This document shows, piece after piece, positions 17,680 to 35,171 of a stretch of DNA of 64,000 nucleotides. Position numbers and translations under genes: made by a program. The notes beneath the pieces are model-generated. The model was not told the origin of the DNA. It worked only from the letters and a program-made list of their open reading frames with translations, and made no database searches. Source of the DNA: Pseudomonas lopnurensis (GTDB lineage: Bacteria; Pseudomonadota; Gammaproteobacteria; Pseudomonadales; Pseudomonadaceae); assembly GCF_015070855.1 (NCBI RefSeq), contig NZ_JADDIX010000014.1, positions 1-64,000 on the forward strand, read 5' to 3'. Each line of letters opens with the position of its first letter. Positions within the stretch are counted from its first letter, which is position 1.

Positions 17680-18140
17680 GGGGGAATCCTCTTTTCAGGT
17701 GGGCGCGAATTCATCATTAGGTCTAACCGCACGGTTATTCCGGGCTCAGCCGTATAAGCGCCGAGCGGCAAGAGAAGAATAGGAGAGATCCTGAGGGTGA
17801 TAAATGCGCTATAGATCGCCTATATGTAGAGATTATTTCTCCAATCAGGCGGAGCCCCCCGCAGTAAGCGCGATGAAGTTCGTCTCGATGAAGCGCGTGC
17901 TGATAAACGCAAGCGCAGCGGGCGGACACGGTATGCCGTTGGCGCTGGAGCTTTCGTGGCTGACGAACCAGCAGCTCGCCGAGCTGCTGGTTTCGATTCG
18001 TAGTGGCTGCGATAACCCACACGTTGAGCTTGTCGCGATGATTTGTCGGCGACCGGAGCGAGGTGGTCCGAGGCCGAGAAGCTGAGCCGGGTCCATCCGA
18101 AACGGCATCATCACATCAGCGGGACGAAGAGTGGGCAAGA
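17680..18140. other. Start of decayed region, no intact gene
   Basis: Only short unsupported frames are present. It begins the gene-poor accessory stretch that continues to the ssrA attachment repeat. The homology shared with 21372-21914 starts at about 18141. Confidence 0.4.
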
Positions 18141-18336
18141 TCAACGGATCGCGCCATGGACATATGCGTGAGCTGAGAACCCAGCACAACGGGCGCCCGA
18201 TACGGACACTGTACGCATTCGATCCCAGGCTCGGCGATCCTGTTGATCGGTGGTGACAAGACGGGCGACAACCGTTGGTACGAAGTCAATGTTCCGTTGG
18301 CGGGTCGTTTCTACGACGAACACTTGGAACAGCTTC
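18141..18336 (+). pseudogene. Truncated, frameshifted HigB/RelE-type toxin remnant (copy 1)
   Basis: This stretch aligns base by base with the C-terminal part of the toxin remnant at 21395-21583 (HMRELRTQH, DPR.., GGDKTGDNRWYE.NVPLA). It lacks the N-terminal half and has lost bases in the run encoding DPRRSA, so no continuous toxin can be made. It sits directly upstream of a matching antitoxin frame, preserving the toxin-antitoxin order of copy 2. Confidence 0.75.
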
Positions 18337-18678
18337 ATGAGGGCTGGTCGATGGCCAAAGTTCGCAGACTTGCGCGCAAAGATGGCGCCGGAGGCTCAGG
18401 CGCGCGTGGAGGTCAAGGCCCAGGAGCTGCTTGCTGAAATGCCGCTGAACGAGCTGCGTCAGGCGCGTGGCTTGTCGCAGAAGGTACTGGCCGAGCTGTT
18501 GCACATGCAGCAACCGCCGATCGCGAAAATGGAAAAGCGCACCGAGATGTATATCTCCACGCTGCGTAGCCACATCGAAGCGATGGGTGGGCAGCTCGAG
18601 GCCATTGCCTGCTTTCCGGATGGTTCGGTGAAGATCAGCAACTTTGCCGAGGTCGAAGCTGCCGCTCAGCAGGCGTAA
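18337..18678 (+). CDS. XRE-family antitoxin-like protein (copy 1, altered N-terminus)
   Basis: About 113 residues. The helix-turn-helix core MPLNELRQARGLSQKVLAELLHMQQPPIAKMEKRTEMYISTL is nearly identical to copy 2 (21585-21914). Two bases are missing in the region matching the normal start (ATGGCCAAAGTTCGC here, ATGGCCAAGAAATTCGC in copy 2). The usual ATG at 18351 therefore reads out of frame, and the frame is only open from an upstream ATG at 18337 that would otherwise lie in the toxin. It may still be translated, but its toxin partner is destroyed. Confidence 0.6.
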   Translation: MRAGRWPKFADLRAKMAPEAQARVEVKAQELLAEMPLNELRQARGLSQKVLAELLHMQQPPIAKMEKRTEMYISTLRSHIEAMGGQLEAIACFPDGSVKISNFAEVEAAAQQA

Positions 18679-18716: not shown

Positions 18717-19106
18717 TTATTGCACGTGCTTGATAGGGCCTGGGTACTTCGCGATGGCCAGGTTGCTCGTGACGAGGATAAATCCCTCCACACTGGCTTG
18801 GCCGATGAGCATCCGATCAAACGGGTCATTGTGGACTGGCGGGAGAGCAGCCGCGGCGATCCCGTGAGTGCCGGTCATTGCAAGCTCGTGATAGTCGGCG
18901 TCCAGCAAGGCTCTCCTGAGGACCGCGGGATCGAACTCGAAATTGGCCTTGCCCATGGCATTCTTGATTCCGACTTCCCAGATGCTAGCCGCGCTGAAAA
19001 AAAGTTCGTAGTTGCGATCTTCAATCAGCGCGGCTGCTGCGGACGGCAGTGAAGAAGGGGCTGCGCAGGCCCAAAGCAGTATGTGAGTATCGAGCAGCAG
19101 CTTCAT
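18717..19106 (-). CDS. VapC-like PIN-domain toxin
   Basis: A 129-residue PIN-domain ribonuclease. Acidic metal-binding residues are visible in MKLLLDTHILLWAC (Asp6), SAASIWEVGIK (Glu), and HNDPFDRMLIGQA (Asp). PIN toxins cleave RNA, often tRNA or rRNA, when the antitoxin is lost. It overlaps the upstream Phd-type antitoxin gene by four bases, the usual antitoxin-first operon arrangement. This pair looks intact, unlike the HigBA-type remnants on either side. Confidence 0.9.
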   Translation of the reverse strand: MKLLLDTHILLWACAAPSSLPSAAAALIEDRNYELFFSAASIWEVGIKNAMGKANFEFDPAVLRRALLDADYHELAMTGTHGIAAAALPPVHNDPFDRMLIGQASVEGFILVTSNLAIAKYPGPIKHVQ

Positions 19107-19363
19107 GACCCGAACATGGCCTCAATATCACTTTGGAAGGGCGTATCGATATCATCCGGAACGACAAACGAGCCCTTTAGCATACCTAATCGAGGCTTCG
19201 GCTCGTGATCAATCGCGACGACCTTTACCATCGGCTTGCCGGCTTTCGCGATGATGAACGGATGGCCCTGGCTGGCCTCAAGGACAAGCTTCGACAGGTG
19301 GGTTTTCGCATCGTGAACATTCACTGTTTTAGGGCTGGTATCGGGGCTGCTCTCTACCTTCAT
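19103..19363 (-). CDS. Phd/YefM-type antitoxin
   Basis: An 86-residue antitoxin with the Phd/YefM N-terminal fold: TVNVHDAKTHLSKLVLEASQGHPFIIAKAGKPMVKVVAID. The C-terminal tail (about residues 60-86) should wrap the VapC-like partner and is acidic near the end (PDDIDTPFQSDIEAMFGS). The start was taken at the ATG of MKVESSPD; an earlier in-frame ATG would add 19 basic residues with no support. It is probably autoregulated with the toxin as co-repressor. Confidence 0.85.
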   Translation of the reverse strand: MKVESSPDTSPKTVNVHDAKTHLSKLVLEASQGHPFIIAKAGKPMVKVVAIDHEPKPRLGMLKGSFVVPDDIDTPFQSDIEAMFGS

Positions 19364-19479
19364 GGCCGTGCTCCGGTTAGCTAACAAGGTTAGTCTATTT
19401 GCCCTGGGGCGTGATCGCAACGTCCGTCAGCACGCCCGATCGGCGGTCAGCTGGCGCGCATCAATCGGGATGGTGGTAT

Positions 19480-21230: not shown

Positions 21231-21583
21231 ATGACTTGGGACGTTGAGTACACCGAAGAGTTTGGTGGCTGGTGGGAATCGCTCACGGCTGAGGAGCAGG
21301 AGTCCATCGCGGTCTCCGTGCGTTTGCTGGAAGAGCGTGGGCCTCGCTTGGATTCCCGCATAGCAGCGCTATCAATGGCTCACGTCATGGGCATATGCGA
21401 GAGCTGAGAACCCAGCACAGCGGGCGCCCGATACGGATACTGTACGCATTTGATCCCAGGCGCTCGGCGAACCTGCTGATTGGCGGAGACAAGACGGGCG
21501 ACAACCGCTGGTACGAAATCAACGTTCCGTTGGCAGATCGTCTCCATGACGAGCACCTGGAACAGCTTGAGAAGGAGGACTGA
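21231..21583 (+). pseudogene. Frameshifted HigB/RelE-type toxin (copy 2)
   Basis: The first half reads MTWDVEYTEEFGGWWESLTA and EEQESIAVSVRLLEERGPRL in one frame. The second half reads GFPHSSAINGSRHGHMRELR through GGDKTGDNRWYEINVPLADR and EHLEQLEKED in the next. Together they match the full phage-type HigB/RelE toxin (Gp49-like). A single missing base at the CGCTTGGATTC junction (about 21350) separates them. Unless this is a sequencing error, no functional toxin is made. The antitoxin follows one base after the stop. Confidence 0.8.
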
Positions 21584-21584
21584 G

Positions 21585-21914
21585 ATGGCCAAGAAATTCG
21601 CAGACTTGCGCGCAAAGATGTCGCCAGAGGCTCAGGCTCGCGTGGAAGCCAAGGCCCAGGAGCTGCTTGCTGAAATGCCGCTGAACGAGCTGCGTCAGGC
21701 GCGTGGCTTGTCGCAGAAGATGCTGGCCGAGCTATTGCACGTACAGCAGCCGTCGATCGCGAAAATGGAAAAGCGCACCGACATGTATATCTCCACGCTG
21801 CGTAGCCACATCGAAGCAATGGGCGGGCAGCTCGAGGTCGTCGCCCGGTTTCCAGATGGTTCGGTGAAGATCAGCAACTTCGCCGAGATCGAAGCTGCCG
21901 CTCAGCAGGCGTGA
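21585..21914 (+). CDS. XRE-family antitoxin, HigA-like (copy 2)
   Basis: A 109-residue helix-turn-helix protein: MAKKFADLRAKMSPEAQARV, then LRQARGLSQKMLAELLHVQQ (HTH) and MEKRTDMYISTLRSHIEAMG. AAGGAGGACTGAG is a strong ribosome-binding site. The toxin-first order (higBA) is typical of the family. With its toxin frameshifted it may persist as a silent or trans-acting antitoxin. The 540-base segment carrying this gene and the toxin tail is repeated at 18141-18678. Confidence 0.88.
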   Translation: MAKKFADLRAKMSPEAQARVEAKAQELLAEMPLNELRQARGLSQKMLAELLHVQQPSIAKMEKRTDMYISTLRSHIEAMGGQLEVVARFPDGSVKISNFAEIEAAAQQA

Positions 21915-21955
21915 GTCTTCGACACTTCTTCGACACGCGCTACTCCAGAAAGCAA

Positions 21956-21989
21956 AAACCCCTGAAATTCTCTAGGAAATCAGGGGTTT
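21956..21989 (-). terminator. Ancestral ssrA terminator displaced by the island
   Basis: The 10-bp perfect stem AAACCCCTGA/TCAGGGGTTT reads as a terminator on the minus strand, followed by TTTGC. It lies 13 bases beyond the distal ssrA repeat, where the tmRNA terminator would stand in an unoccupied chromosome. The island brings a replacement terminator at 34743-34775. Confidence 0.7.
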
Positions 21990-22001
21990 AAGTGCTTCTA
22001 A

Positions 22002-22033
22002 TTGGTGGGGCCGGGGGGATTTGAACCCCCGTC
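22002..22033. repeat. Distal attachment repeat (ssrA 3'-end copy)
   Basis: This 32-base copy of the ssrA 3' end (TTGGTGGGGCCGGGGGGATT...) differs from the copy at 34792-34823 at one position. It is not followed by the rest of tmRNA. It marks the far end of the integrated island. Confidence 0.92.
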
Positions 22034-22086
22034 ATATAGCTATATTCCGGGGCCTGCGGCGCAATAGCTGCCATTCTGCTGTCATT

Positions 22087-23076
22087 CTATGCGTCGTGGA
22101 AAATGTCCTGAGCTTTTCCGGTAGCTACATAATCCGCGAGAGCTTGAAGCCGCCGATGATAAGCCAGCACCATCTTTATTCCCGACAGAGGATCACCACC
22201 GGCCAATTCTAGGATGTGCTCTGTGCTGTCCCCAATGCCGATAGCTTCACAGCTAGCCTCCAGAATTGCATTTAAATCTTCCACCTCTTGAGCAGACAGA
22301 TTTACATCGGATGCTGATTTGCCTAGCCACCCCATGTCCTGCAGGTGACGATGAGTTGTTTTATAGGCTTCAAGAGATGGACTGTTTTCTTCATTTATCA
22401 AGTTTACTAACTCCCTAATGGAGTCAGCGACATCGCCATTCATATAGAACTTAATCTCGCCTGGTGAGGCGTAGGCGATTTGTCTAATTCCTGCGCGATC
22501 CTCATTTGGGATGTTGTGATACAACTCTCTGAAGAAATTAACTGAGCTGAATCCACCTCGCCACGGATGTTTGTGGAATAGAGACGTTATTTTTTTTGTG
22601 GTGGCTTTACCAGCAGCACCTAACAATGCAAAGCCAAAGGAATAGCAGTCTTGAACTGAGTCAGAGAATGTTTTTAAATCACTTATCTCCCACTGCCCAT
22701 CTATATCAACGACTTTGAAGTCGCTGTTTAGGCTTTCAGGAGCGTGGCCAGGTATAAACATGCCTGGTTCTGGAAGCACGTCTGCAGGCAGTTCGGCAGA
22801 GCCTTTAGTTTTGAATTCTTCGCCAACAGTGCCCCAAACCTCACCTAGTTCGTATTTGCCGGTATGTAGTTTGGTTACGGCATAATGTACATCGATTTTT
22901 TCAGCGTACAAAGACTTCAAGTGTTCGATTTTTATTTTGGAGAAATAGAACTTAAATGCTTTTTCGCCGTCGTCATAATTTACGCCTAAATAGCGGTCAC
23001 CGTTTTTTTTCTTTGCTAATGCTATAAGTGGTACCTCATAGCTAAGCAAGATTTTTTCTATTATCAGATTAGCCAT
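22087..23076 (-). CDS. Unknown protein, second gene of a two-gene island module
   Basis: 329 residues, AT-rich compared with its surroundings. The N-terminal 100 or so residues form an apparent beta-rich domain (LLSYEVPLIALAKKKNGDRY..FYFSKIKIEHLKSLYAEKIDV) that recalls the DUF6575 type, from memory and weakly. The remainder is mixed helical with no catalytic motif I can name; no transmembrane segment or signal peptide is seen. It overlaps the end of the 133-residue gene upstream by eight bases, so the two are translationally coupled. It sits between the integrase and the distal att repeat, a common cargo position for defence or toxin-antitoxin genes. Function is unknown. Confidence 0.82.
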   Translation of the reverse strand: MANLIIEKILLSYEVPLIALAKKKNGDRYLGVNYDDGEKAFKFYFSKIKIEHLKSLYAEKIDVHYAVTKLHTGKYELGEVWGTVGEEFKTKGSAELPADVLPEPGMFIPGHAPESLNSDFKVVDIDGQWEISDLKTFSDSVQDCYSFGFALLGAAGKATTKKITSLFHKHPWRGGFSSVNFFRELYHNIPNEDRAGIRQIAYASPGEIKFYMNGDVADSIRELVNLINEENSPSLEAYKTTHRHLQDMGWLGKSASDVNLSAQEVEDLNAILEASCEAIGIGDSTEHILELAGGDPLSGIKMVLAYHRRLQALADYVATGKAQDIFHDA

Positions 23077-23470
23077 TTAGGTCTTCCACTCTACCGGCGA
23101 CACCCGTCGGGCTTACAGTAAGATAGGGCCACCAGTTCACATGAGTAGGTTGGTCTTTATGCCATACACCAAGTCCTGGATCGCAAGGAACCTCAACGGC
23201 GTGAGTGAACTTCATTTTCGCCATCCGAGGACTTTTAACTGCCGCCCTGCATGCGGCCAACGATGTCATCAAAGAAACTGAGCGCGCTAAGCATTCGTCC
23301 GGATACTTATGGCTAGATAGTCGTTTGCGTTGAGAGTCAAAATCCTCCGCGGTGTGCGCACTCGCTCTCAGAAGCCTCCAAAGTACTGGCTCAGTTGGAG
23401 TGACCACTTTTTCAGGGGGGCAACTGGTAGGTAGAGGCTCTAGAAAATCAAATCCATTTGTCGGTGACAT
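23069..23470 (-). CDS. Unknown protein, first gene of the two-gene island module
   Basis: 133 residues. After a Pro-rich N-terminus it has PVLWRLLRASAHTAEDFDSQ, CLARSVSLMTSLAACRAAVK and THVNWWPYLT, giving a compact fold with conserved-looking Arg, Cys and Trp residues. I cannot assign it to a characterised family. It overlaps the 329-residue gene downstream by eight bases. Its small size, coupling to a larger partner, low GC and location beside the integrase suggest a toxin-antitoxin-like or defence pair, which is speculation from context. The ribosome-binding site is weak. Confidence 0.75.
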   Translation of the reverse strand: MSPTNGFDFLEPLPTSCPPEKVVTPTEPVLWRLLRASAHTAEDFDSQRKRLSSHKYPDECLARSVSLMTSLAACRAAVKSPRMAKMKFTHAVEVPCDPGLGVWHKDQPTHVNWWPYLTVSPTGVAGRVEDLNG

Positions 23471-23564
23471 GAAGCGCGTCCGAATATAGTGGCAATGTGC
23501 TGGATGGAGGCATTTTGGGTGAGGTGCCGGACGCAGTCAAAACTTTAATTCCAGCCACGCGCTA

Positions 23565-24743
23565 TCAGTCTGAAATTGTTGGCTTTTTAAGGTTTTCCGG
23601 TTTGAAAAATACTTCTTCGGCCTTCTCGCCTGCGCTTGCATTGGCATGTGGCATCCACCTGCCGTATACCCTTGCGATCATGGTCCAATCGGTGTGGCCC
23701 ATCTGCTTGGCCACCCACATTGGATGCTCGCCGGCTGAAAGCATCATGGAGGCATAGGTATGCCGCGTTTGGTATGGCCGCCGATACCGAACACCTGCCT
23801 TCTTCATCGCCGGCACCCACATGGTTTTTCGGATCGGCCCGTCACCGGCCCAGCGGTCAAGAGTGCGCGGATTTTGGAAAACCTCGGCGTCCGCCAAGAA
23901 TGTGTGTGCCTTTTGCGCCGTCAATGCCTCCAACGCCGGTTTTAGGAGTTTTACGCTTCGGCGTCCGGCGGCAGTCTTAGTGGTTTCAGCCTTCCCTTTG
24001 CCTGCTTGAGTCATGGCTCTGCTCACCATCACCTCCTCACGCAGCCAGTCGATATCGCCCCAGTCCAACGCCACCAGTTCACTTGTGCGAAGGCCCGTCC
24101 ATAGCGCGAACTGCATCATGTTTCGTGCCTGGCCGGAGAGCGCACCCAGCACGGCCTGTTGCTCTTCCGGACTGAAGGGGTCGACGTCATCCTCTTTTGA
24201 TGGTGCCGCTCTGCGGGAGTAAGTCCAGCCCGCGAGCGGGTTCAGCTCAATCAGCTCTTCCTCGGCGGCATCATTGAGCGCAGATCGCAGGCAACTTTGG
24301 ATATTGCTGAGCGTCTTGTTGCTTACGTCAAGGGTGTCTAACCAGTCGCGCACGATCTTGCGCTTCAGGTCGACCACTAGAACGGTACCTAGTGCTGGCA
24401 CCAGACGCAGTTCGACAATCTTCCGATAACCATCGTAGGTGCTGCTGGAAACGTGCTTCTTCTTTCCGGTCAGCCAGCGAGTGAGGAAACCCATCACGTT
24501 TTCCCGGCAGACCTCTGGAGCGAACCGCGCCGCACGCGGGGAGTTCGGGAAAGTAGCTAAGTAATCAAAGACGCCTGTAGCAATGTCGTGCTCAATAACA
24601 TTCTTGTACCGCTCTGCGAGCTTTAAATTTGTGGTGGTAGGCTTGAGCGAGAAGCGCTCCCGGCACCTAACCCCGCGGTACATGAACGTGATTTCGATAC
24701 TCGAGTCCGAGACCGCCCGAACTCCCCGCCCATCTCTACCCAT
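23565..24743 (-). CDS. int: Tyrosine recombinase (island integrase)
   Basis: A 392-residue phage-type integrase. It has an N-terminal arm-binding domain of the DUF3596 kind (MGRDGRGVRAVSDSSIEITF, RCRERFSLKPTTTNLKLA) and a SAM-like core-binding domain (about residues 85-185). In the catalytic domain, Arg in LWTGLRTSELVALDW, the RPYQTRHTYASMML box, QMGHTDWTM and nucleophile Tyr in IARVYGRW are visible. It probably recombines the ssrA att repeats. It reads toward the distal repeat rather than lying next to ssrA itself. Its start overlaps the excisionase-like gene by 121 bases in another frame. Confidence 0.95.
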   Translation of the reverse strand: MGRDGRGVRAVSDSSIEITFMYRGVRCRERFSLKPTTTNLKLAERYKNVIEHDIATGVFDYLATFPNSPRAARFAPEVCRENVMGFLTRWLTGKKKHVSSSTYDGYRKIVELRLVPALGTVLVVDLKRKIVRDWLDTLDVSNKTLSNIQSCLRSALNDAAEEELIELNPLAGWTYSRRAAPSKEDDVDPFSPEEQQAVLGALSGQARNMMQFALWTGLRTSELVALDWGDIDWLREEVMVSRAMTQAGKGKAETTKTAAGRRSVKLLKPALEALTAQKAHTFLADAEVFQNPRTLDRWAGDGPIRKTMWVPAMKKAGVRYRRPYQTRHTYASMMLSAGEHPMWVAKQMGHTDWTMIARVYGRWMPHANASAGEKAEEVFFKPENLKKPTISD

Positions 24744-28040: not shown

Positions 28041-28288
28041 GTCTTGCACCTTCTGGGCTGATGATTTGCGCTGCATTCAGCTTCTCACCTGCTGTGCCAA
28101 TCCCAAGGATTTCTTCCTCCTGAGATCCCATTCAGCCGGCACTTGGCTGATTAAATTCCAGAGCAACCGGCGCACCGCTTATATTCGCTGCGCGACACGT
28201 GTTCAAAACATGCTCACACCACCTCTCTTGCTTATGGGAGTCTGACAGTTCACCTCACATAGAGGGAATCTGCCGATTTTTGCCGAAA
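28041..28288. other. Intergenic, nothing recognised
   Basis: No supported gene lies between the small membrane protein and the repeat array. Short frames here lack ribosome-binding sites and family features. Confidence 0.4.
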
Positions 28289-28566
28289 GGGTGTCGTGAA
28301 GGGGTGTTGCCGCTGTAACCCGCACGATTACTGGGTCTCAGGTTATTCAGAGCGTCTCGTACTGGTTAAGGGGTGTCGTAAAGGGGTGTTGTTGCCCAGG
28401 TAAGAGGTGTCGTGAAGAGGTGTTGCAGCTGCAAACCGCATGGTTGTTGGGTTTCAGGTTATTCGGGGCGTCTTGTACAGGTTAAGGGGTGTTGTCGTCG
28501 AGATAAGGGGTGTCGTGAAGAGGTGTCGTCGCAGCAGCCCCAATGGTTGCTAGGTGTTGCGCTGGA
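28289..28566. repeat. Tandem-repeat array with GGTGTCGTGAAG motif
   Basis: A long unit of about 116 bases (anchor CAGGTTATTC at 28339 and again at 28455) is followed by a diverged partial third copy about 103 bases on. Inside the units the short motif GGGGTGTCGTGAAGRGGTGTTG and its halves recur at 28289, 28370, 28404, 28484, 28506 and 28551. The layout resembles iterons or a recombinase or replication-protein binding array. No open reading frame with coding character covers it. Confidence 0.8.
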
Positions 28567-29166: not shown

Positions 29167-29278
29167 AACTGGCGCTCCTGCGATTGTTGAGTATCACTTT
29201 ATCACGCAATATTGCGCAAAAGCGGTCGGCGGGATGCCGAATCCTGTAGAATCTCGGCCCGCGAAAAAAGGGGGAAAT

Positions 29279-31084
29279 ATGACTCACACGGCACAGGCAA
29301 AACAGGCACGGCAGGCAGGCCAAACGGCTGCGGAATCCCCGAGCCAGGTACTGGCCTCCGCCAGAGTCATGGCCCGCGCCCTGGCTACCACTTTTCCAGC
29401 GGATCACCAGCTGGCCCTGGCGCGTGCGTTCGGCGTTCGCCTGATCGAGGCTTGGTGGCGTGGCCTGACCAGCGTCGACATCGTTCCCCAGGAACTACGC
29501 TCACCACTCCAGCCGTTCCCTACCGAGCCGCTGACAGAGGCCGCCGCCGCTCTCGCGGAAACCATCGGTCGCACTGCCGCGAAATTCGATGCCGAGACCG
29601 CCGCCTATCAGATCGGCCTTACCTATACCGGTATGCTCCCAGCCGAACATCGCGGGGAGTACGGCATTTTCTACACGCCGCCTGTCTTGACCGCCCGTCT
29701 GATCGACCAAGTAACGGCCGCCAATGTTGACTGGGCGAAGTGCCGCGTGCTTGATCCAGCCTGCGGCGGCGGGGCCTTCCTGGCACCCATCGCCCAGCGG
29801 ATCATGGACGAGCAGAAGGATTGCAGCCCGAAGCTGCTGATGCAGAGCATCGGCAACCGCTTGCGCGGCTACGAGATTGATCCCTTCGGGGCCTGGCTCA
29901 GCCAGGTCACCCTGGATGCCGTGGTACTGCCGATTAGCCGGCTGGCTGGGCGCAAGCTACCCGTCATGGTTACGGTTTGCGACTCGCTGCGCCGCAGCCC
30001 GCCGAAAGACCGTTTCGACCTGGTGATTGGCAATCCTCCATATGGCCGGGCTAAGCTCGATGCCGAGACCCGCGAACGCTACAAGCGCTCGCTGTATGGC
30101 CATGCCAACCTGTATGGGCTGTTCACCGATCTGGCACTGCGCCACGCCAAGTTGGGCGGCGTGATTGCCTACGTCACCCCGACCTCATTCCTGGCCGGCG
30201 TCTACTTCAAGAATCTACGGGCTTTGCTGGGGCGCTCAGCGCCGCCACTGACCATCGATTTCGTCACCGCCCGTAAGGGCGTCTTTGATGACGTTCTGCA
30301 GGAAACGGCCCTGGCGACCTATCGTCGCGGCGGGGATAGCGCCCCGGTCGTCGTTGCCGAGGTTGCCCCTTCTAGGGACGGGCTGGAGGTTCAGCAGACG
30401 GGCGAGATCGCCCTCCCTGCTGATCCATCCCTACCCTGGCTCTTGCCCCGTACGACCGAGCAAAGCGCCTTGGTCGAGCGCCTGACACACATGCCCCATC
30501 GTCTGGCCGACTGGGGCTATGGTGTGAGCACCGGACCGCTGGTGTGGAACCGTTTCAAGAACCAGCTCGCGCACCGCCCAAGCGGCAAACGCCTGCCGCT
30601 GATCTGGGCCGAGGCAATCACTGCCGATGGCCGTTTCGTGTTCCGTGCAGACAAGAAGAACCACGCACCCTACTTCGAGCTGAAAGCCGGGGACAACTGG
30701 CTGGTGACTACTAAGCCCTGCGTTCTGCTGCAACGCACGACTGCCAAGGAACAGAGTCGCCGCCTGATTGCCGCAGCGTTACCCGCTGAGTTCCTAGAGA
30801 AGCATGGCGGCGTCGTCATCGAGAACCACATCAACATGATTCGGCCGACCACCGAAGCGCCCCAAGTTAGCGCCGAGGTGCTGGGTGCATTTATCAACAG
30901 CGCGGCCGCAGACCGCGCGTTTCGCTGCGTAAGTGGCTCTGTTGCGGTCTCTGCCTACGAGCTGGAGTCGCTGCCGCTGCCAGGACCCCAGGACCTCGTG
31001 GAGCTGACCTGGCTAGTCGATGCCGGTGCCGATCGCGAATCCATTGAGGCTGCATGCAGTCGATTGTTTGAAGGGGATATGTAG
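29279..31084 (+). CDS. Type II N6-adenine DNA methyltransferase (PstI/BsuBI-type partner)
   Basis: A 601-residue adenine methyltransferase. The SAM-binding motif I is VLDPACGGGAF (157-167) and the catalytic motif IV is GNPPYGR (251-257), in gamma-type order. The C-terminal half provides target recognition. It should protect the site cut by the endonuclease encoded next. The start was set at the ATG preceded by AAGGGGGAAAT; an upstream ATG at 29234 would add 15 residues. The stop TAG overlaps the GTG start of the endonuclease by one base, so the pair is coupled. Confidence 0.92.
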   Translation: MTHTAQAKQARQAGQTAAESPSQVLASARVMARALATTFPADHQLALARAFGVRLIEAWWRGLTSVDIVPQELRSPLQPFPTEPLTEAAAALAETIGRTAAKFDAETAAYQIGLTYTGMLPAEHRGEYGIFYTPPVLTARLIDQVTAANVDWAKCRVLDPACGGGAFLAPIAQRIMDEQKDCSPKLLMQSIGNRLRGYEIDPFGAWLSQVTLDAVVLPISRLAGRKLPVMVTVCDSLRRSPPKDRFDLVIGNPPYGRAKLDAETRERYKRSLYGHANLYGLFTDLALRHAKLGGVIAYVTPTSFLAGVYFKNLRALLGRSAPPLTIDFVTARKGVFDDVLQETALATYRRGGDSAPVVVAEVAPSRDGLEVQQTGEIALPADPSLPWLLPRTTEQSALVERLTHMPHRLADWGYGVSTGPLVWNRFKNQLAHRPSGKRLPLIWAEAITADGRFVFRADKKNHAPYFELKAGDNWLVTTKPCVLLQRTTAKEQSRRLIAAALPAEFLEKHGGVVIENHINMIRPTTEAPQVSAEVLGAFINSAAADRAFRCVSGSVAVSAYELESLPLPGPQDLVELTWLVDAGADRESIEAACSRLFEGDM

Positions 31085-32160
31085 TGCTGCCACCGTACGT
31101 ACCAAGGGAACTGGTCGCTGAAAGGCTCCCGCTGATCTTCCCGGAAGGAACTCCGAATCGGATCTACTGCACTCGCGAACTAGCAGCGAGCACTGTATTT
31201 GCCATGCTGTATATCGGGGCTATCGAGCACTCCAGCGTTCGGCTGGGGCCGGTGCATGTCTATCGCATGACCGACGTACAGGCGGCGAATGACAGCGACG
31301 AGGAGCGCCTCAGCTACAGGTCTAACTTGCGCAAGAAATCGTACGAGGTTCCCGGCAAGCGCTGGTACGCCGACAACACCCGCGAACCTATCCGCGACGA
31401 GACCCTCCGCGAAGGTCTTGTAGCAGTTGGTGCCGTCATGGAAGACAAGGACGTGCCCACTACGTCCGGTAAGCCGCGATACGCACTCAAGACTGATTTG
31501 GCTGCCTTGTTCGACCCTGCGCTCCAGGGCGAAGAGTTAGAGGGAGCTATTCTCAAGTGGCAAGATGAACACTTGAACAAAGGCGCGCTTGCGCGGATTT
31601 CGCTGATGCGTATGGGTGCTGCCGACCAGGAAGGCGTGCTTGTCCGCTTCCCCAACGGTGAAACGCGCACGCTCTCCCATGGCCCTAGCTCGCTGATTTC
31701 TCGGGCAGTCGTTGAGGTCTTCGCCAAGCAGTTCCTGGAGAAACCTGCTGTGCTTTGGCTCAGTGAGTCGAGTAACAAGGTCGCCATGCAGGACCTGCGC
31801 ATGGCTTCCACCATTGGACTCGACATCGAGGCGCAGAAGAACCTACCCGATCTGATCCTGGTGGATCTCGGACCGAGCAATCCCCTGATCGTCTTTATCG
31901 AGGTGGTGGCCACCGATGGGGCAATCACCGCGCGCCGCCAGGATGCCCTGTTCGACCTGACGGACAAAGGCGGCTTCAAGCGCTCGCAAGTCGCTTTTGT
32001 CACTGCGTATGCGGATCGGGAGTCGGCAGGCTTCAAGAAGACCGTCACAGGTTTGGCCTGGGGCTCGTTTGCCTGGTTTATGAGTGAGCCCGATAAAATT
32101 TTCATGCTCCGTGACGGAGTCAGTCCTCTGTCTAGCTTGAACCAGCTACTAGCTCCTTAA
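31084..32160 (+). CDS. Type II restriction endonuclease, BsuBI/PstI family
   Basis: 358 residues. The C-terminal domain holds the family signature LPDLILVDLGPSNPLIVFIE followed by VVATDGAITARR, with Asp256 and Glu273 as likely metal ligands of a PD-(D/E)xK-like site. An N-terminal helical domain precedes it. Founding members recognise CTGCAG; the specificity of this enzyme cannot be read from sequence. It uses a GTG start overlapping the methyltransferase stop, an arrangement that keeps endonuclease expression tied to and below that of the methylase. Confidence 0.92.
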   Translation: MLPPYVPRELVAERLPLIFPEGTPNRIYCTRELAASTVFAMLYIGAIEHSSVRLGPVHVYRMTDVQAANDSDEERLSYRSNLRKKSYEVPGKRWYADNTREPIRDETLREGLVAVGAVMEDKDVPTTSGKPRYALKTDLAALFDPALQGEELEGAILKWQDEHLNKGALARISLMRMGAADQEGVLVRFPNGETRTLSHGPSSLISRAVVEVFAKQFLEKPAVLWLSESSNKVAMQDLRMASTIGLDIEAQKNLPDLILVDLGPSNPLIVFIEVVATDGAITARRQDALFDLTDKGGFKRSQVAFVTAYADRESAGFKKTVTGLAWGSFAWFMSEPDKIFMLRDGVSPLSSLNQLLAP

Positions 32161-34791: not shown

Positions 34792-34823
34792 TTGGTGGAG
34801 CCGGGGGGATTTGAACCCCCGTC
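34792..34823. repeat. Proximal attachment repeat within ssrA
   Basis: This 32-base segment at the ssrA 3' end matches 22002-22033 with one difference (A for G at the ninth base). It forms the T-arm and acceptor end of the intact tmRNA gene, so integration restores a functional gene here. Confidence 0.92.
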
Positions 34824-35171
34824 CGCCAGCTCTCCGCTATCGGTTCTACATGCTTAGCCAGATCTATTGAGTTAACTCCGCGCCGCCCGATTGGCAGGGT
34901 GCTTGGAGCGAGCTGTATGAGATTTAGCCGTTACGTCTACAGCGAACTTGGCGGCGATCCTGTTCTATCTGACGGTCATTTCGGGTTTACAGGCATCCCC
35001 TAGTGACCGCTGGCGCCGAAGCGACCAGATGAAGGTTAGGCGGCTAGCGCGTACCCTTCGTAGTTGTCGTCGTTGGCAACTATAGGTTTGCAACAGTTTA
35101 TTTACGAGTTCTGTTACCAACTCGGCATGCCCCTCAAGTTTCGTTACCGGCGTCGAATCCTAATCGGCCCC
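34793..35171 (-). ncRNA. ssrA: tmRNA (SsrA)
   Basis: tmRNA rescues stalled ribosomes by acting as both tRNA-Ala and mRNA. The 5' end GGGGCCGATTAGGATTCGAC and the 3' end CCCCCGGCTCCACCA form a 7-bp acceptor stem with one G-U pair. The T-arm GGGGGTTCAAATCCCCC is present and CCA is encoded. The tag reading frame at 35036-35077 encodes ANDDNYEGYALAA plus stop, ending in the ALAA degron read by ClpXP. Its partner SmpB is encoded at 44487. The 3' end is the attachment site of the island. Confidence 0.97.

Follow-up and report, generated by a model that had tools for sequence, protein, structure and literature searches.

We analysed a window of 64,000 nucleotides of Pseudomonas lopnurensis DNA and find that it carries a variant of the known defence system PD-T4-10, encoded by two overlapping genes, here called A and B. 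In our preferred reading, to which we give a probability of roughly three in four, A-B is a diverged toxin-antitoxin operon of the PD-T4-10 type that would act by abortive infection and is cargo of an island at the tmRNA gene; A would restrain B through its N-terminal domain (N-domain), and the C-terminal domain (C-domain) would do the harm. Both proteins are homologous to those of PD-T4-10, the gene order and overlap are shared, and A co-occurs with two-domain B. By analogy, this copy would behave like the E. coli system in toxicity, neutralisation and phage defence. The earlier note on this DNA had called the pair undescribed and a candidate for a new system. This was too strong, since PD-T4-10_B recognises B over its whole length and PD-T4-10 is published. 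What is new is the proposed cassette, in which one antitoxin family and one N-domain serve mutually dissimilar effectors.

The genes and their surroundings are laid out as follows.

22002-22033 (+), att repeat, a copy of the tmRNA 3' end (repeat match)
22087-23076 (-), gene B, 329 aa, ATG start, PD-T4-10_B family, presumed toxin
22090-22737 (-), B residues 114-329, PD-T4-10 C-terminal toxin domain, which also occurs alone in prophages
22738-23076 (-), B residues 1-113, DUF6575-like, beta-rich N-terminal domain, presumed dock for A (profile-profile comparison, structure match, secondary structure)
23069-23076 (-), overlap of the end of A with the start of B, 8 nt, presumed translational coupling
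23069-23470 (-), gene A, 133 aa, ATG start, diverged PD-T4-10_A family, presumed antitoxin
23512-23540 (-), A-B operon promoter, sigma-70-type, TTGACT-17-CAAAAT, conserved upstream
23565-24743 (-), tyrosine integrase of the island (Pfam), context outside the A-B pair
29234-31084 (+), Eco57I/N6-type methylase
31084-32160 (+), BsuBI/PstI-family endonuclease
34792-34823 (+), att repeat at the 3' end of the tmRNA gene (repeat match)
34793-35171 (-), tmRNA gene

The reading frames bear out the two genes of 133 and 329 residues and the eight-base overlap that had been described, and their placing as cargo between an integrase and an att repeat holds as well, the two att copies being identical at 31 of 32 bases. 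Because this repeat duplicates the tmRNA 3' end, the island is taken to span ~22.0-34.8 kb. The tmRNA gene looks like a recurrent island site, as the first 26-27 bases of the tmRNA end have a second copy elsewhere in several genomes of the genus (in G024, G029, G033 and G036 this copy shares a contig with the tmRNA and lies ~55-73 kb away). Both genes had been described as clearly AT-rich, which is right for B (43.9% GC) and only moderately so for A (51.0%); the integrase has 56.7%, the island 55.7% and the whole window 61.1%. Inside the island, the methylase and endonuclease genes form a Type II restriction-modification (R-M) pair (29234-32160, + strand). At 18717-19420 (-), a PIN-domain gene is preceded by a gene for a Phd/YefM-type antitoxin, an order like that of VapBC.

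A and B are real genes under purifying selection and no chance reading frames. The copy in L012/L015 is 92% identical, and comparison with it gives a dN/dS of 0.083 for A and of 0.043 for B; dS was saturated in many other pairs. The promoter pattern (TTGAC, 17 bases, or 18 in L002, then nAnAAT) is present in 8/8 aligned upstream regions, and by eye it is absent from a ninth locus, L020, which lies outside that alignment. The A-B promoter copy is the sole sigma-70-type site found within 21900-23700; since shuffled sequences average 2.1 sites, a single site means little, and the evidence for the promoter is its conservation. The low dN/dS and the conserved promoter together make A and B look like working genes. 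The overlap is 8 nt in 7/8 same-clade relatives and 1 nt in L020.

B identifies the system. It matches the PADLOC PD-T4-10_B model PDLC04024 at E 5.9e-40 over residues 3-322, and its C-terminal part matches further PD-T4-10_B models at E 3.7e-22 and 2.9e-16; at E<=1, the only PADLOC models to match this protein were those of PD-T4-10_B, with none of PDC-M63B. As canonical PD-T4-10 we took those members that PADLOC scores strongly, the original E. coli sequence not being among those compared. L052 and L053, which stem from two further genomes in the family of the window's genome, score 5.7e-131 and 1.4e-131 for B and 2.5e-52 and 1.4e-50 for A. Window B aligns with the canonical L052 B at a BLASTP E of 3e-14 and 23% identity. 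PD-T4-10 came to light when E. coli DNA was selected for protection against T4 (Vassallo et al. 2022, PMC9519451). In that work, B is toxic in E. coli and is neutralised by A, no deletion of A could be obtained, T4 resistance was lost when B was deleted, and protection against T-even phages in E. coli is by abortive infection. Together with the match of B, this experimental record supports the suggestion, already made in the earlier note, of a toxin-antitoxin or defence function.

Other resources gave neither gene a name. Pfam, NCBIfam and PHROGs had none for A or B (for B only a weak Tudor_5 match, E 0.18, far below cut-off), and a metabolic or structural family, considered as a competing assignment, was matched by neither protein in the libraries searched. 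The structure model of B (mean pLDDT 86.6, pTM 0.65) had nothing at E<=0.001 against the PDB with Foldseek, a second structure comparison that covered mostly residues 113-329 gave no Z >= 5, and B matched the PDB by sequence twice at chance level (E 0.48); we therefore assign B no fold, and no solved structure accounts for the toxin. Its best match among viral models (BFVD) is a DUF6575 protein (E 5.2e-8, 307 columns), with TM-scores of 0.32/0.29 that are too low to prove a shared C-terminal fold.

The DUF6575-like N-terminus that had been proposed for B is upheld by this viral structure match and by profile-profile comparison, in which B residues 2-110 reach a probability of 93 and the N-domain alone 96.5, the latter against a DUF6575 set of L043, L009, L044, L045 and the B of L031. 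The Pfam model itself (PF20215) does not match window B at E<=1, and the gathering cut-off is not reached; we therefore call B DUF6575-like only. The B proteins of L052 and L053 fall just below that cut-off (25.9 and 24.3 against 26.6 bits).

The smaller protein had been described as lacking a known name; profile comparison places it, in a diverged form, in the PD-T4-10_A family. The PADLOC PD-T4-10_A model does not match window A even at E<=1, while the A of L002, 80% identical to it, matches PDLC04023 (PD-T4-10_A) at E 1.4e-4. No match was obtained for the A of L003, L018, L020 and L044, for those of L054 and L055 at E<=0.1, or for that of L031 at E<=0.001; the A proteins of L012, L013, L014 and L019 were left out of these runs. 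The model thus misses at least four A genes of the window clade (window, L003, L018 and L020). We collected nine A proteins of the window clade, three of canonical PD-T4-10, four of DUF6575/PDC-M63-like operons and two of M78-peptidase operons, and built leave-group-out profiles, each of which was scanned against 2247 ORFs. With the whole window clade omitted, the profile of canonical, DUF6575-type and M78-type A found window A at E 1.1e-12; the canonical profile alone found it only at 0.017. Left-out DUF6575-type A were recovered at 7.7e-17 to 8.8e-4, M78-type A at 6.6e-17 and 5.7e-15, and canonical A at 8.5e-8 to 4.5e-4. At E<0.05 these profiles retrieved the known A genes and a single new one, L031:2663-3127, which lies directly upstream of another, divergent DUF6575-like B. 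Comparison of profiles between A groups gave a probability of 94. Six residues of A (R, S, C, S, G and H) are invariant in 8/8 aligned sequences. A has no Pfam match at E<=1, hence no DUF4065, and no PDB match by sequence at E<=1. Its structure model was too poor for a fold search (mean pLDDT 41.3), so that no fold backs the antitoxin role.

The co-occurrence of the two genes, which the earlier note had suggested checking, is found in other islands and genomes, and its pattern is specific to the form of B. A lies directly upstream of 17/17 two-domain B genes, or 16/16 without the window, whose two genes were known as a pair from the outset. Counted were genes for an N-domain plus an effector that had been located without recourse to A as a query and whose upstream sequence was available (window, L002, L003, L012/15, L013/16, L014/17, L018, L019, L020, L009, L043, L044, L045, L052, L053, L055 and L054/56); L021, whose contig starts at B, and the B genes of L040 and L031, which were found through A, were left out. 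The spacing from A to B is -8 to +15 nt where measured, the start codon being unsure in L056. By contrast, A is upstream of 0/11 solo toxin-domain genes having upstream sequence. There are 12 solo genes in total (L005, L006, L007, L008, L022, L023, L024, L029, L030, L031, L050 and L051), L030 having no useful upstream sequence, and L025-L028 are counted once with L005, in the case of L026-L028 by identical match values only. An A gene near the L031 solo gene belongs to that contig's own divergent DUF6575-like B. Fisher's test on the 17 against 11 gives 4.7e-8, a value that ignores relatedness, with 9/17 genes in one clade. The A-profile scan listed no A for L011 (DUF6575 E 6.9e-4) or for L042 (PD-T4-10_A E 1.9e-4, with stops). 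L041 (PD-T4-10_A 6.5e-5, with stops) looked like chance when read and was rejected. The viral contig L031 holds, within 5 kb (L031:1350-6335), A with its DUF6575-like B, a Drt8-type reverse transcriptase and a gene for the PD-T4-10 toxin domain in its solo form.

Since A accompanies two-domain B and is absent from the solo copies, action of A through the N-domain is the simplest reading. The C-terminal toxin domain, for its part, is not always paired, as the solo prophage copies have no adjacent A. Two viral contigs (L046:3131-3613 and L047:1355-1750) encode a DUF6575 N-domain without A or an effector domain; these were excluded from the 17 for want of an effector and argue against a strict rule that the N-domain always comes with A. 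They are possibly decoys or anti-defence proteins. The N-domain protein of L046 ends in a hydrophobic tail.

The solo proteins also differ in a hydrophobic stretch after the SPG motif, with Kyte-Doolittle values of 1.35-2.03 in 10/10 measured against -0.09 to 0.75 in 11/11 two-domain proteins, which do not have it (L050-L053 not included). This stretch points to a membrane-leaning solo branch. In L007, a hydrophobic 169-aa protein is encoded directly upstream of the solo toxin-domain gene (L007:2164-2673, - strand) and may be an alternative partner of the solo toxin domain. A tree of the toxin domain (25 rows) has two changes between fused and solo forms; long branches meet in it, and a single origin of these forms may be compatible with it.

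We compared the parts of B by profile-profile alignment across operon types. Between N-domains the probabilities were 97.8 for canonical and DUF6575, 95.5 for canonical and M78, 98.4 for DUF6575 and M78, and 52.3 for window and M78. The direct comparison of window and canonical N-domains is weak (probability 22.9, E 9e-4), although collinear (residues 10-108 on 25-122), so that the two are linked mainly via the DUF6575 group. Window, canonical and solo C-domains form one family (probability 99.8 to 100), whereas PD-T4-10 C-domains compared with DUF6575-type or M78-type C-terminal regions reached 0.6 or less. The M78-type operons are L055/L057 and L054/L056; L055 carries Peptidase_M78 (PF06114, E 2.1e-9), HExxH is present in L055 and L056, and the capP and RmrA peptidase models match both. 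In L009 and L044, and weakly in L045, the C-terminal part is matched by PDC-M63B models; L043 B and L031 B have no such match, so the term PDC-M63-like rests on the first three. The N-part of the L031 DUF6575-like B matches PD-T4-10_B at 1.5e-4. Judged by these sequence comparisons, an N-domain with an A gene directly upstream is common to PD-T4-10, PDC-M63/DUF6575-like and M78/IrrE operons. DUF6575-type operons with A lie on plasmids of Oscillatoria, Arthrobacter and Rhodococcus, which indicates that the A/N-domain cassette crosses phyla.

On balance, we consider it more likely than not that A and the DUF6575-like N-domain form a general antitoxin-plus-dock cassette, found in at least three phyla and with at least three unrelated effectors (the PD-T4-10 toxin, a PDC-M63B-like domain and an M78/IrrE metallopeptidase). 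On this view, a single combinatorial family of toxin-antitoxin defences would have PD-T4-10 and the unproven PDC-M63 as two outlets, with the solo prophage genes as its unmuzzled, membrane-leaning branch. We found no paper linking A, DUF6575 and exchanged effectors in a limited literature search. If the cassette reading is true, any newly met DUF6575 protein whose gene follows an A gene could be predicted to be a muzzled effector.

The pair can be placed among its closest known systems. With PD-T4-10 it shares two overlapping genes with A first, a full-length PADLOC match of B, an A of the same family by profile, and the same N-terminal and C-terminal make-up of B; it differs in the low identity of B to the canonical L052 protein, in an A that the PADLOC model misses, and in an overlap of 8 nt against 1-4 nt in the canonical L052, L053 and L040. 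DUF6575 (PF20215)/PDC-M63 operons likewise combine a homologous A, encoded immediately before B, with a B whose N-terminal domain is homologous, but their C-terminal domains have no detectable sequence similarity to that of window B (probability under 1%). PADLOC's candidate PDC-M63AB, tried in the E. coli strain that natively carries it, did not protect against the phages used (PMC12409345), which weighs against a broad claim. M78/IrrE operons (L055/L057, L054/L056) have A upstream and a related N-domain, and differ in their HExxH Peptidase_M78 C-terminal domain. The solo prophage proteins have a homologous C-domain (probability 100) and, unlike window B, no N-domain, no A directly upstream and the hydrophobic stretch noted above. 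In its working, the cassette resembles Panacea (PanA, DUF4065), in which one antitoxin family is combined with many unrelated toxin domains (PMC8832971). Unlike Panacea, window A has no DUF4065, and the toxins here also have a common N-terminal domain, with which A could keep one binding site.

We propose that the antitoxin is A, whose gene comes first and is presumably coupled to B in translation, and that B is a two-domain toxin whose DUF6575-like N-domain would be the site gripped by A and whose C-domain would be the harmful part. A would dock on the N-domain and thereby restrain a swappable effector. On phage infection, A would be lost or pulled away and B freed; growth would then stop and the phage would not spread. 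An unnamed pair thereby becomes a testable system, and DUF6575 gains a proposed role as the part of a toxin that an antitoxin grips. If this is right, several unrelated effectors are served by one antitoxin-dock pair, unannotated DUF6575 genes of plasmids and islands gain a predicted function, and the mechanism of the PDC-M63 candidate becomes directly testable by domain swaps in laboratory strains.

The pair might instead be an addiction module only, which keeps the island in the chromosome and has no anti-phage role. A place between int and att fits such a stabiliser, and the window carries another toxin-antitoxin-like pair (the PIN/Phd genes at 18717-19420). We nevertheless regard this as unlikely: the tested relative came from a selection for phage resistance (PMC9519451), and the island carries the BsuBI/PstI-type R-M pair. 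Moreover, neighbour genes picked by eye were of defence type by PADLOC in 3/4 relatives (a Drt8-type reverse transcriptase in L031, a retron-type reverse transcriptase in L003 and a type III methyltransferase in L059, which is L053), the fourth, L058, having no match, and no relative of the window's integrase was found in the 6.5-11 kb stretches of L003, L012, L014 and L020.

There is a smaller chance that A is a sensor or activator that B needs, the two forming a two-component defence switch whose trigger A recognises. Residues that stay invariant across very diverged A groups look like more than a disordered clamp, and the N-domains without A in L046 and L047 also suit this idea; set against it is the published behaviour of PD-T4-10, in which B is toxic alone and A both neutralises it and could not be deleted (PMC9519451). 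A decayed, non-functional remnant of cargo, for which the rarity of A-B in the genus (1/56 genomes) might speak, is already disfavoured and hardly credible, as both frames are intact, dN/dS is 0.04-0.08 against the closest relative, and promoter and overlap are kept.

The distribution of the genes is sparse. That single B-like gene in the genus is the window's own, and the family has seven in 398 genomes, three of the window clade (the window's own included), two canonical and two solo. We take this family to be Pseudomonadaceae, because the A and B proteins of two of its genomes recur in named Pseudomonas records. PDLC04024 was found in 4/369 genomes of the class (the window's own, two solo and one by its N-part only) and PD-T4-10_A in 3/299 of the phylum, one of them strong. 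Window B had no match in 50,697 phage records and matched two plasmid records, both of the solo form. A DNA search for PD-T4-10 of the L040 type in E. coli genomes found nothing, a gene-order search around L040 gave no second copy (1/78), and viral sequences scanned with DUF6575-type A yielded no relative. A solo toxin gene of a Salmonella prophage, which adjoins ogrK and tail genes, is present in 159/5426 E. coli genomes at >=99% identity.

Two repeats were observed in the window. A helix-turn-helix gene with the tail of its upstream gene is present as two diverged copies to the left of the att repeat (18140-18657 and 21371-21893), ~3.2 kb apart and with pieces 84-92% identical, the Pfam helix-turn-helix match being in the second copy. 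Two to three diverged tandem copies, with a spacing of 103-116 nt, occupy 28262-28555.
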